From Streptomyces coryli (GTDB lineage: Bacteria; Actinomycetota; Actinomycetes; Streptomycetales; Streptomycetaceae), in the NCBI RefSeq assembly GCF_011044975.1, contig NZ_JAAKZV010000037.1, positions 1 through 47,165 on the forward strand: DNA of 47,165 nucleotides. The letters are read 5' to 3'. The translations under genes were made by a program, and so were the position numbers. The first letter of the stretch is position 1; every line of letters starts with the position of its first letter. Below are positions 9,833 to 47,165 of this stretch, one piece after another. A model generated the notes under the pieces. That model was not told the DNA's origin, made no database searches, and saw nothing but the letters and a program-made list of their open reading frames with translations.

Positions 9833-10267
9833 ATGGCGTATTTCCACCTCGAGCGGCACGTCCCGCTGCCCGCCGCGGAGGCCTGGCGGCGGGCCACCGA
9901 CTTCGCCCGGCACGCGGACGGCATCCCGGCCACGCGCATCGTGCGGTCCGGCGACATCGCCGCCGTGGGCGGACGGTTCACCGCGCGTACTGGATGGCGG
10001 CGGGTGGGCTTCGACGACCCGATGGAGATCGTGCGCTGGCAGCCCCCGGGCGACGGCGGTACGCCGGGCCGCTGCCGGCTGGAGAAGCGCGGCCGACTGG
10101 TGCGCGGATGGGCCGAGATCGAGGTGTACGGCGAAGGGGCGGGCACCCGCGTCGGATGGCGGGAGGAGCTGCGGCCGCTCGGCATGCCGCGGGTTTTCGA
10201 CCCCCTGCTGGCCCGCGCCGCGCGGGCGGTCTTCGGCCGGGCTCTCGACCGGCTGCTGCGGGGATAG
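9833..10267 (+). CDS. SRPBCC-family protein
   Basis: A 144-residue protein of the START/Bet v1-like (SRPBCC, polyketide cyclase/dehydrase) fold. It opens with the typical first strand and helix, FHLERHVPLPAAEAWRRATDFARHADGIP, and closes in an amphipathic helix rich in Arg and Ala (ARAAVFGRALDRLLR-like). Family members bind small hydrophobic ligands; no ligand or catalytic residue can be named here. No clear ribosome binding site precedes the ATG, and TAGCCT ends 8 bases upstream, which suggests a leaderless or nearly leaderless mRNA. It converges on the cholesterol oxidase gene. Confidence 0.82.
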   Translation: MAYFHLERHVPLPAAEAWRRATDFARHADGIPATRIVRSGDIAAVGGRFTARTGWRRVGFDDPMEIVRWQPPGDGGTPGRCRLEKRGRLVRGWAEIEVYGEGAGTRVGWREELRPLGMPRVFDPLLARAARAVFGRALDRLLRG

Positions 10268-43551: not shown

Positions 43552-45624
43552 ATGTCGTGGACGCGTAAGGCCCTGGCCGCTGTAGCGGCGCTGCTCGTGG
43601 TGCTGGTGGGTGCGGCTCCCGCGGGGGCGCACGAGGAGCGGCCGGTGTCCTTCCCGGACGGCTCCGGGAGCGTGCCGAAGTACCGCGAGGGCGCGCCGGA
43701 TCTGCTGGTGTGCAAGACCGACCGCGCGGACTTCGAGCGGCGCATCGCCGACTATCCGCGCCCGCTGCGGGAGCGCAACGAGCGGTACTTCGAGCGCTGC
43801 CTGCGCGACGGCTACCGGCATCTGCAGGCCGCGGTCGACGCCGTCGACCGCCCGGACATGAACATCGCCATCCTGCCCGGCGTCTACCAGGAGCAGCCGA
43901 CCCAGCCGAAGCCCTCGGGCGCCTGCGCCCGGCTGAAGGCCCGCAAGTCGTCGTTCGGCTACCAGATCCTGTCGTACGCGCAGCAGAAGCGCTGCCCGTC
44001 CAATCAGAACCTGGTCGCCATCCTCGGCAAGAAGAACCTGCAGATCGAGGGCACGGGCCAGTCCCGCTCGGACGTCATCATCGACGGCCAGTACAAGAAG
44101 CTGAACGTGATCCGCGCGGACGGCTCGGACGGGGTCTACTTCCGGAATTTCACGGCCCAGCGGTCCACCTTCAACTCGCTGTACGTGCTGGCCGGCGACG
44201 GCTTCGTCATCGACGACATGCTGACCCGCTGGAACGACGAGTACGGCTTCCTGACCTTCGCTTCGGATCACGGCCTGTACAAGAACTGCGAGTCGTACGG
44301 GAACGGCGACTCGGGGATCTACCCGGGCAGCGCGTCGGACATCAACAACGGCCGGGGCTACGACGTCCCGCGCTACTCGATCGAGATCACGGGCTGCCGC
44401 AGCCACCACAACATGGTCGGCTACTCCGGCACCGCGGGCGACTCCGTCCACGTCCACGACAACGAGTTCGACCACAACATGGGCGGCGCCTCGATGGACA
44501 GCGCCTTCCCCGGCCACCCGGGCCTGCCGCAGAACCACGCCCGCTTCGAGCGCAACGACATCCACGACAACAACGCGAACTACTACCGGTACGTACGCGA
44601 CGGCACCTGCGCCAAGCCGCCTGCCGAGCGGGGATACGAGCGCGGCGTGGTGTGCCCGCAGATCTCCATGCCGCCGGGGACGGGGATCATCACGGCGGGC
44701 GGAAACTGGAACATCTACGAGAACAACTGGATCCACGGCCATCAGCGGGCCGGGATCTTCCTGAGCGCCGTCCCCGCCTTCATCCGGGGCGAGGGCGCGC
44801 TGGGCAAGCAATTCGACACGTCGCACCACAACCGGTACGCGGGGAACCGCTTCGGGACGGACCGCGCGGGCCGCTCGCACCCGAACGACATGGACGTGTG
44901 GTGGGACGGCCAGGGCGGCGGCAACTGCTGGCAGGCGAGCGCGGGCGCCTCCAACCCGCGATCGCTCCCGTCCTGCGGCGACAGGCGGGGCGATGTCTCC
45001 GGGGATACGGACCGGGTGGCCGGCGAGCCGGGGAAGCTGGCGCAGCTGATGGTGTGCGCGGAGTACGACGCGGGCGCGCGGAAACTGCCGGCGGGGTGCG
45101 ACTGGTACGGCGCGCGGGGTGTTGAACGGGTCGAGGTGCAGCTCGCGCTCGGGGTGGCCGGGGTGCTGGCGCTGGTCGGCGGCGTGCTGTGGTGGCGCCT
45201 GCGGTCCAGCCGCGTGGCCGGGGCTGCGGCGCTGGCAGGGGCGGCGGGTCTGGTGCTCGACGTGGTCGGGTCTGCCGGGTCGTACGCGGACACGCTGATC
45301 CCGGTCGTGGCGCTGGTGCTGCTCGGCGGCTGGTGGGCGGCGACCGGGTGGGTGCTGCGGGAGGAACGGCGGGCGTTCGCCTGGGTGACGATGGCGATGG
45401 GGGCGCTGACGCTGCTCGACGCCTTCGACAAGGCGGTGTTCATGCTCCCGTGGATCCCGCTGAGCCCGGCCTGGGCGCGGATGCTGCTCGGTGTGGTGTG
45501 GGTCGTCTGGGCGGTGGTGGCCGCGGCCCGCCTGCGGACGCCCTCGCGGTCGGCAGAGGCGGATGCGATGGAATCCGGCCCCGCGGACACTCCACCCGCC
45601 GCGGCGGCGGGGGCGGTGTCGTGA
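43552..45624 (+). CDS. Secreted right-handed beta-helix protein with membrane tail (NosD-like)
   Basis: A 690-residue protein. Residues 1-26 are a signal peptide ending APAGA, so the mature protein should begin at His27. A Cys-containing N-terminal region (30-115) follows. Residues about 120-420 are parallel beta-helix repeats rich in His, Asn and Asp (SHHNMVGYSGTAGDSVHVHD, EFDHNMGG, NDIHDNNANYYRY), resembling the NosD/CASH fold of copper-site maturation proteins and polysaccharide-binding enzymes. A C-terminal part (about 525-665) has four to five membrane helices. Substrate and metal are not proven. Its stop overlaps the start of the lipoprotein gene as GTGA. I know no named family with this exact layout. 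Confidence 0.82.
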   Translation: MSWTRKALAAVAALLVVLVGAAPAGAHEERPVSFPDGSGSVPKYREGAPDLLVCKTDRADFERRIADYPRPLRERNERYFERCLRDGYRHLQAAVDAVDRPDMNIAILPGVYQEQPTQPKPSGACARLKARKSSFGYQILSYAQQKRCPSNQNLVAILGKKNLQIEGTGQSRSDVIIDGQYKKLNVIRADGSDGVYFRNFTAQRSTFNSLYVLAGDGFVIDDMLTRWNDEYGFLTFASDHGLYKNCESYGNGDSGIYPGSASDINNGRGYDVPRYSIEITGCRSHHNMVGYSGTAGDSVHVHDNEFDHNMGGASMDSAFPGHPGLPQNHARFERNDIHDNNANYYRYVRDGTCAKPPAERGYERGVVCPQISMPPGTGIITAGGNWNIYENNWIHGHQRAGIFLSAVPAFIRGEGALGKQFDTSHHNRYAGNRFGTDRAGRSHPNDMDVWWDGQGGGNCWQASAGASNPRSLPSCGDRRGDVSGDTDRVAGEPGKLAQLMVCAEYDAGARKLPAGCDWYGARGVERVEVQLALGVAGVLALVGGVLWWRLRSSRVAGAAALAGAAGLVLDVVGSAGSYADTLIPVVALVLLGGWWAATGWVLREERRAFAWVTMAMGALTLLDAFDKAVFMLPWIPLSPAWARMLLGVVWVVWAVVAAARLRTPSRSAEADAMESGPADTPPAAAAGAVS

Positions 45625-46040
45625 CGCCCGCGGTTCGGGGTGCGTGCACCACGCTGCTCGCCGCGGTTCTTCTGGCCGTGAGCGGCTGCTCGTTGCCGAC
45701 CACTCATCACCGGCCCGGAACCAGCCACGAGGAGGCCACCGGGTCCGTGGCACCGGCGACCCAGCCCGCGCCCGGGGAGCGGCGTGAGGTCGTCATCCGT
45801 ATCGCCGGCGGCAAAGTCAGCCCGAAGCCAGGCCGCGTCGAGGTCGAGCGTGGCGCGCGCGTAGAGCTTCGCGTCACCAGCGATGTCGCCGACGAGCTGC
45901 ACGTCCACGGCTACGACAAGTCCGCCCAACTCAAGCCGGGCAAGGCCGCGACCGTGGCATTCACCGCGGACCGGAGCGGACTGTTCCAGGTGGAGACGCA
46001 CTCCGCGCATCTCGTGCTGACCCAGCTGCTCGTACGGTGA
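45621..46040 (+). CDS. Cupredoxin-like lipoprotein, cysteine-free site
   Basis: A 139-residue lipoprotein with lipobox VSGC (Cys23). After a His/Thr/Ala-rich linker (27-52) comes a small beta-sandwich of about 85 residues that fits the cupredoxin-1 family (VVIRIAGGKVSPKPGRVEVERGA, then a GLFQVETHSAHLVLTQLLVR ending). The only cysteines are at 9 and 23, both in the signal region. The blue-copper Cys is therefore absent; His94, His96, His127 and His130 could form a type-2-like or storage site. It is coupled to the beta-helix gene before it (GTGA) and the membrane gene after it (TGATG). It sits on the outer face of the membrane. Confidence 0.82.
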   Translation: MTPAVRGACTTLLAAVLLAVSGCSLPTTHHRPGTSHEEATGSVAPATQPAPGERREVVIRIAGGKVSPKPGRVEVERGARVELRVTSDVADELHVHGYDKSAQLKPGKAATVAFTADRSGLFQVETHSAHLVLTQLLVR

Positions 46041-47165
46041 TGCTCGCGCACGGCGTCGGTGACCGGCAGGACCTGCCGATCTCGGTCTTCTATGCGTATG
46101 CGGGCGCGTTCGCCGCGCTCTTCGTCTCCTTTCTGGCGCTGGGGCTGCTCTGGCCCGAGTCGCGGTTCTCCGCCGCCGCCGGACGGCCGCTCCCCGCCTG
46201 GTTGCGGCGAGTTGTCGACGGCCGCGTGCTGCGTCGGAGCCTGCGGGTGGCCGGACTCGCCGGTGCCGCCCTCGTCCTCGGGCATCTGCTGCTCGGCCCC
46301 GACGACCCCGATCGCAACCCGGCGCCGGGCGCGATCTACGTCGTCCTCTGGGTCGGGCTCGTGCCCGCCTCGCTCCTCTTCGGTCCCGTATGGCGACTCC
46401 TCAATCCACTCCGCACCCTCCATCTCCTCCTGTGCCGCGCCCTGCGGCGCGACCCCGACGCCGGCGGCCGGCCGCTGCCGTCGCGACTCGGCTTCTGGCC
46501 CGCCGCGGCCGGGCTCACCGCCTTCACCTGGCTTGAACTCGCCTCGCCCGAACCCGCCTCCCGCACCACCCTCCTCACCTTCATCACCGGCTACGCCATC
46601 GCGCACCTCCTCGCCGCCGCCCGCTACGGCAGCGCCTGGTTCGCCCGCGGCGACGCCTTCGAGGTCTACTCCGCCCTGCTCGGGCACCTCTCACCGCTGG
46701 GCCGCGGACCCCAAGGCCGCCTCGTGCTGCGGCACCCCTTCCACAGCCTCGACGCCGTCCCGCAGCTCCCCGGCCTCGCCGCCACCGCCTGTGTGCTGCT
46801 CGGCTCCACCGCCTACGACGGCTTCTCCGCCACCCCCTCCTGGATCGACACCCTCCAGACCTCCCCCCTCGGCCGCACCGGCGCAGCCACCCTCGGACTG
46901 CTCGCCGCCATCGCCGCCGCGGCCGCCCTCTTCACCCTCTGCACCTCCGCCGCCCGCCTCATCTCAGGCGCCCGCCTCAACTCCGACGGCCTCAACTCCG
47001 ACGCCCTCATCTCCACCCGGAAAGCCGGCTCACGCGCCTTCGCCCACTCCCTCCTCCCCATCGCCACCGGCTATCTCATCGCCCACTACTTCTCACTCTT
47101 CGCCACCGAAGCCCCACGCACAGTCACCCTCGCATACGGCACTGACAACCCGCCCCCGGCCGCCC
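46040..47165 (+). CDS. Polytopic membrane protein, partial (cut by window end)
   Basis: An open frame of 375 codons with no stop before the window ends. It begins MLAHGVGDRQDLPISVFYAY at an ATG that overlaps the cupredoxin stop as TGATG. It has at least eight hydrophobic helices, at about 18-38, 68-86, 98-121, 150-170, 177-195, 243-260, 281-302 and 335-354. Recognisable stretches are GPVWRLLNPLRTLHLL, YGSAWFARGDAFEVYS, LGSTAYDGF and TGYLIAHYFSLFA. I know similar proteins as uncharacterised actinobacterial membrane proteins and can give no function. The coupling to a cupredoxin and a beta-helix protein suggests a metal-linked transport or assembly role. The C-terminus is missing. Confidence 0.78.
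   Translation, partial: MLAHGVGDRQDLPISVFYAYAGAFAALFVSFLALGLLWPESRFSAAAGRPLPAWLRRVVDGRVLRRSLRVAGLAGAALVLGHLLLGPDDPDRNPAPGAIYVVLWVGLVPASLLFGPVWRLLNPLRTLHLLLCRALRRDPDAGGRPLPSRLGFWPAAAGLTAFTWLELASPEPASRTTLLTFITGYAIAHLLAAARYGSAWFARGDAFEVYSALLGHLSPLGRGPQGRLVLRHPFHSLDAVPQLPGLAATACVLLGSTAYDGFSATPSWIDTLQTSPLGRTGAATLGLLAAIAAAAALFTLCTSAARLISGARLNSDGLNSDALISTRKAGSRAFAHSLLPIATGYLIAHYFSLFATEAPRTVTLAYGTDNPPPAA

Follow-up and report, generated by a model that had tools for sequence, protein, structure and literature searches.

What do three tightly packed genes at the edge of a Streptomyces coryli contig do together? The window analysed here, i.e., the whole stretch of 47,165 nucleotides (NZ_JAAKZV010000037.1), ends in three genes of the same strand, termed A, B and C below, which encode a secreted beta-helix protein, a lipoprotein and a membrane protein, respectively (Table 1). 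A preliminary description, made from the sequence of the window, had proposed that they form a cell-surface system that handles copper or another metal. We find that A, B and C are a real unit, an operon, and we propose, with moderate confidence, that they constitute a membrane-tethered, extracytoplasmic module for the capture and relay of copper. The earlier proposal holds insofar as the system is unnamed in the libraries searched, is extracytoplasmic and consists of parts that point to a metal, most likely copper; its core turns out to be the pair B-C and not the trio.

The case for an operon comes from 80 loci, obtained by scanning one genome per species with conserved peptides of A; 78 are from Streptomyces, one is from Nocardioides (L043) and one from Catelliglobosispora (L077). 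The order A, B, C is found in 69 of the 80 loci, and the three families accordingly co-occur in other genomes. As previously noticed, the A/B junction of the window overlaps as GTGA and the B/C junction as TGATG. A 4-base overlap is kept at A/B in 65 and at B/C in 60 of the 69 loci with all three genes, a recurrence above chance. Four of the ordered loci differ in A/B spacing; in one of them (L076) the match to A extends only to residue 393, with B a further 3.8 kb downstream. Among the 11 loci without a full trio, nine are on contigs that end at most 525 bases past A, one of which (L040) retains part of B. In another (L032:11978-12656), a scaffold with N gaps, B is encoded on the opposite strand, which probably reflects faulty assembly and not a loss of the gene. 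The Catelliglobosispora locus is the one genuine exception, with A but neither B nor C at the locus and no C anywhere in the genome. The trio is also carried by Nonomuraea, with identities of 61, 53 and 55% for A, B and C, respectively.

Protein A is 690 amino acids long and has an AxA-type signal peptide. It had been likened to NosD with a membrane tail; secretion, the beta-helix (PF13229, right-handed beta-helix, 38.1 bits for a cut-off of 25.9) and the hydrophobic tail stand, whereas the match to NosD itself (PF05048, 11.6 bits) falls under the cut-off of 23.6. Wider relatives of A align no further than position 520 of 681, with the exception of that in genome G001. At the N-terminus, [AS]-x-A is followed by H-[ED]-E-R in all 80 loci. 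We also aligned 14 A proteins, trimmed at this motif: the window protein together with four closer relatives and nine more distant ones (leaving out the A matches in G029 and G159, the second matches in G058 and G123, and G261). All 14 sequences keep the His, Glu and Arg of H-x-E-R as well as His322, and 13 of them have His302. Judging from the AxA site, mature A is predicted to begin with His27, as in histidine-brace copper proteins, which bind copper via an N-terminal His of this kind (PMC10952591). His302 and His322 are candidates for the second ligand of such a brace. The B subunit of the copper monooxygenase likewise starts with HGER directly after Ala (A/HGER) in three fetched genomes, a resemblance only.

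The N-terminal His also recalls lytic polysaccharide monooxygenases (LPMOs), and beta-helix folds are common in carbohydrate-active proteins. One could thus imagine that A is a secreted beta-helix enzyme active on polysaccharides, perhaps LPMO-like, and that B and C merely supply its copper, all the more so as A is the part of the system that varies between lineages. However, no carbohydrate-active enzyme (CAZyme) or lyase family was matched by A in the Pfam and NCBIfam scans and the neighbourhood gives no hint of a substrate, so that we regard an enzymatic A as quite improbable.

Protein B (139 amino acids) has the lipobox VSGC, and its sole Cys residues, at positions 9 and 23, belong to the signal and the lipobox. 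Its early description as a lipoprotein with a Cys-free domain containing four His (94, 96, 127 and 130) was accurate; three more His (29, 30 and 36) lie in the tail. The three B sequences missed by the pattern for this tail either have truncated starts (L051, L076) or read GTRH (L056). The H-x-H pair is furthermore present in 24/24 B homologues located beside C (L083-L112). The predicted model of a B relative matches the cupredoxin fold, of the CuA/nitrosocyanin type, and the B sequence is similar to COX2. In NCBIfam, B comes closest to the cupredoxin end of NosZ, with 23.8 bits for a cut-off of 625. Because its cupredoxin domain is devoid of Cys, a role of B as an electron carrier of the blue-copper kind is unlikely.

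Most Streptomyces B proteins contain an extra domain between the tail and the cupredoxin (59/70 by a strict pattern, which is an undercount); short forms were found in the window, L023, L025 and L043. The extra domain has no relative in Pfam and none, by sequence, in the PDB. It is present in 80 alphaproteobacterial plasmid records, of which six were inspected. In two Sulfitobacter plasmids it is fused behind a PCu(A)C domain (Pfam check of one), in Loktanella it adjoins genes for YHYH proteins, and in Phaeobacter the extra-domain protein (L191:4194-5300) adjoins a gene for a vanadium-dependent haloperoxidase. Stand-alone versions (L190:4809-5309 and L192:4812-5309) adjoin CbtA/CbtB genes, near DUF1636 genes, and the stand-alone domain is perhaps a metal-uptake part with links to cobalt.

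The third gene starts at 46037 (GTG) or 46040 (ATG) and its frame remains open to the window end. As its relatives have about 420-450 amino acids, around 50 residues of the window protein must be missing. The count of eight helices given for it earlier thus refers to an incomplete protein; the predicted model of a full-length relative has about nine long helices. The C proteins scanned against Pfam and NCBIfam reached no family cut-off, including those of CopD and CtaG, and the predicted fold found no convincing match in the PDB. Comparison with one CtaG gave a probability of 1.3, and similarity to that protein was rejected. The name fenitrothion hydrolase was also discarded for C: it appeared in no annotation inspected, and in open-licence PMC papers the term turned up in three on insect microbiomes and never together with cupredoxin. 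In a survey of 72,556 plasmid records, 23 contained a C relative, which is called ‘hypothetical’ in the 20 where it is annotated; 17 of these stretches were inspected, two of them (L149 and L153) being unannotated. Across 22 diverse C proteins from actinobacteria, haloarchaea and proteobacteria, numbered as in L003, three His and one Met are conserved near the C-terminus: His337, His383 and Met414 in 22/22 and His391 in 21/22. Only His337 falls inside the window.

Three conserved His could also coordinate heme or copper in a redox membrane protein that links an enzyme to the respiratory chain by electron transfer, B being the donor or acceptor. The presence of C in nicotinate clusters with molybdenum enzymes would be in line with such a role. 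We nevertheless hold it to be unlikely, given that the Cys residues of blue and CuA sites are missing from B and that the Sulfitobacter C adjoins a copper chaperone instead of a redox carrier.

The distribution of the genes separates A from the other two. Over 296 Actinomycetota genomes, C was detected in 51 and A in 13 (E up to 1e-20 for A). A B homologue lies just upstream of C, on the same strand, in 23 of 29 further Actinomycetota loci (L084-L112), the six others being L085, L101, L104, L106, L110 and L111, and A was not found beside C in any of these 29 stretches of about 4 kb. These counts indicate that the widespread core consists of B-C, to which A has been added as a partner in certain lineages (Streptomyces, Nonomuraea and Nocardioides). 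In 8 of 20 longer regions (L117, L119-L125), the place before B, which A has in Streptomyces, is taken by a protein some 630 residues long that by eye resembles a membrane protein; the three of the eight that were scanned matched no Pfam family. C itself is patchy in the family of G001, being present in 12 of 150 genomes, once as a 58-residue fragment. We also considered a linkage of A and C outside the operon, as C is present in 8 of the 13 A-bearing genomes versus 51/296 overall. This was not retained: except in G001 the two genes are not adjacent there, and shared ancestry may explain their co-occurrence.

Copper genes recur around C in other organisms. Subunits of copper membrane monooxygenases are encoded near C in M. 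dioxanotrophicus, M. chubuense NBB4 and two Rhodococcus plasmids, the nearest at about 10 kb or less. A search of the plasmid records with the NBB4 A subunit gave five matches, namely these four C-bearing actinobacterial plasmids and one methanotroph. CopC, a CtaG and oxidase genes are located near C on an M. gallinarum plasmid, CopC lies 8 kb from C on that of M. rufum, and a galactose-oxidase-like gene is near C on a Pseudonocardia plasmid. A CtaG gene was also observed directly adjoining C. Further neighbours of C are SCO, TlpA and CcdA in Natrononativus and a ZIP gene in Haladaptatus halobius, where a second C relative is beside a gene with an Iron_transport domain. On two plasmids of Sulfitobacter mediterraneus, a C relative (312 and 298 bits) adjoins the fusion of PCu(A)C (36.5 bits, cut-off 29.4) with the extra domain of B, in a nicotinate cluster; no A was seen in that stretch. 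C relatives lie within alphaproteobacterial nicotinate-catabolism clusters at L146, L147, L188 and L193.

Taken together, the candidate ligands, the lack of Cys in the cupredoxin and the copper genes around C speak for a copper relay rather than an electron-transfer chain or a Nos system. We suggest that A, anchored by its hydrophobic tail, would bind Cu(II) through its mature N-terminal His in a histidine-brace-like site on the beta-helix. Through contact with A, the lipoprotein B could then accept copper on its THHxPGTSH tail, on the H-x-H site of the cupredoxin, or on both, and C would move the metal into or across the membrane at its site of three His and one Met. This transfer may serve uptake, or the loading of a copper enzyme of the membrane or the secreted fraction. 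A copper monooxygenase, considered as the client in Streptomyces, was not detected in the 12 C-bearing genomes tested (11 from the family of G001 plus Nocardioides; two of these showed A itself and seven the promoter box described below), though the family was detected in the 296-genome scan.

Several observations weigh against a copper relay. The N-terminal His of A depends on a predicted cleavage site, A-like genes elsewhere do not adjoin C and show no metal theme, and B scores under the sequence cut-off of Cupredoxin_1 (PF13473, 23.7 bits versus 27). The neighbourhoods are not independent, the four monooxygenase plasmids possibly representing about two events, and the chromosomal link is weak, C being present in one of three monooxygenase genomes among the 296. 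Proteobacterial C is often found in clusters for nicotinate catabolism (Fuscovulum, Neorhizobium, Sulfitobacter), and no clear metal gene is near C in Variovorax, Salarchaeum or Haladaptatus YSMS36. In Nocardioides (L043:12016-12432), B has lost H-x-H and the later ETH while its tail is kept and A and C have open frames and look intact; the same genome holds a second B-C pair (L083) that retains H-x-H. This loss would fit a metal-free scaffold of the envelope or cell wall with structural histidines, a role that we find highly improbable in view of the conserved His in A, B and C and of the copper neighbours across phyla. Other observations bear on the identity of the metal. The extra domain of B stands alone beside the cobalt-transporter genes CbtA/CbtB in Leisingera and Pontibrevibacter, and CbtA is near C on plasmids of M. 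rufum (Pfam-checked) and M. vanbaalenii, the latter showing no clear copper gene. Proteins of the anglerase study are moreover described as binding Cu2+ or Ni2+ through an N-terminal His (PMC12537917). The same module could therefore work with cobalt or nickel. We judge this rather unlikely, however, because copper proteins (PCu(A)C, CopC, CtaG, SCO and copper monooxygenase) outnumber those for other metals among the metal neighbours of C that could be named.

The operon also seems to have its own control element. A 24-base box upstream of A departs from its consensus by 0-2 positions in 76 of the 80 loci, by four in the window and by 7-10 in L043, L049, L052 and L077. Among 1,921 random 170-base segments of the loci, three showed no mismatch and all others 8-15; the three are probably the boxes of three loci in which A is not at 10001. 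Of 10 genomes, 7 contain a single match to the box, located about 3 kb upstream of C, and the reversed pattern gave no match; G390 has a close C, yet no match to the box. This box would seem to serve the A-B-C operon as its own promoter or operator, and the transcript, to judge from the position of the box, is probably leaderless. The idea of a wider regulon was dropped, the operon itself being the sole match per genome. A second conserved inverted repeat, of the type GGAATCCTATG..CGTAGGATTCC, was seen by eye about 60-120 bases before A in many of the loci L001-L080 and not in the window; perhaps it pertains to the divergent hmgA-type gene.

The genes around the operon, all named by eye, differ between the window and most Streptomyces loci. 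Of 67 loci of more than 20 kb, 55 have an hmgA-type gene and 57 a GntR-type gene upstream of A, and 52 have a TetR-type gene, mostly downstream of C, whereas glycogen-type genes precede A in the window. The trio thus stays together across settings. An ABC ATPase gene is located about 5-7 kb upstream on the other strand, past the hmgA/GntR genes, in 38 of the 67 loci, with a permease in 36.

Table 1. Positions of the operon, its promoter-like box and the candidate metal-site features in the window.
Feature	Position	Strand	Remark
24-base promoter-like box, ending 7 bases before the A start codon	43521..43544	+	conserved upstream of A
Gene A, encoding a secreted protein (right-handed beta-helix, hydrophobic tail at the C-terminus)	43552..45624	+	PF13229 over cut-off
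His27 codon, predicted first residue of mature A	43630..43632	+	conserved after [AS]-x-A
C-terminal hydrophobic part of A, about residues 530-660, by eye in some four segments	45139..45531	+	
Gene B (short form), encoding a lipoprotein whose cupredoxin domain lacks Cys	45621..46040	+	
THHxPGTSH tail behind the lipid-anchored Cys of B	45702..45728	+	67/70 B sequences by pattern
H-x-H pair of the B cupredoxin domain	45900..45908	+	69/70 close B sequences
Gene C, multi-helix membrane protein, open at window end	46037..47165	+	no Pfam/NCBIfam family
Codon of the invariant near-C-terminal His of C (window His350 = L003 His337)	47084..47086	+	22/22 diverse C

The uptake of copper by bacteria and its delivery to copper enzymes outside the cytoplasm are poorly understood. 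If C indeed has a role in copper handling, a widespread gene pair becomes testable, including the pair near alkane-type copper monooxygenases, and A, if our reading of it is true, adds a new scaffold to the histidine-brace proteins. A more far-reaching proposal, which is possible but which we advance with some doubt, is that A represents a new histidine-brace copper class with a right-handed beta-helix as its scaffold, and that C defines an unnamed membrane protein family for copper relay, which actinobacteria, haloarchaea and proteobacteria share and whose partner can be an H-x-H cupredoxin or PCu(A)C. Among the top results in open-licence PMC papers, we found none on the trio or on C.

Comparison with known systems must begin with the maturation of nitrous-oxide reductase (NosD-NosL-NosF-NosY), which involves a beta-helix protein, a copper lipoprotein and a membrane protein, and of which the combination had been said to be reminiscent. 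A-B-C similarly combines a beta-helix protein, a putative copper lipoprotein and a membrane protein. Unlike in the Nos system, NosZ exceeded its cut-off (TIGR04246) in 0/12 C-bearing genomes, with short matches under the cut-off in 11, and A, B and C gave no NosD, NosL or ATPase match over cut-off. The preliminary description had thus rightly noted that the reductase is missing, as is a NosF-type ATPase within the operon, there being no gene between A, B and C in the window, although no search for ATPase families was made. CuA- and nitrosocyanin-type cupredoxins have their fold and COX2 similarity in common with B, which differs from them by an H-x-H pair and the lack of Cys ligands. The Sulfitobacter fusion adjoins a C homologue, as B does, and has the extra domain of long B, with PCu(A)C in place of the H-x-H cupredoxin. 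The nearest parallels to A-B-C appear to be histidine-brace copper-uptake systems rather than Nos maturation. In the copper uptake of Bacillus subtilis by YcnI/YcnJ (DUF1775 plus CopC-CopD; PMC8424229, PMC12362106), as in the relay proposed here, extracellular domains of histidine-brace type pass Cu(II) to a putative membrane importer. A, however, is a beta-helix and not a DUF1775 protein, B is a separate lipoprotein, and A, B and C have no Pfam match to CopC or CopD. In the anglerases Ang-1 and Ang-2, a mature N-terminal His domain is likewise proposed to fetch metal for a membrane permease (PMC12537917). These proteins differ from A-B-C by their fusion to HupE/UreJ-2 and by other folds, the main text of that study containing no word that starts with ‘helix’; they share with A the idea of an N-terminal His that would capture a metal outside the cell for a partner in the membrane.

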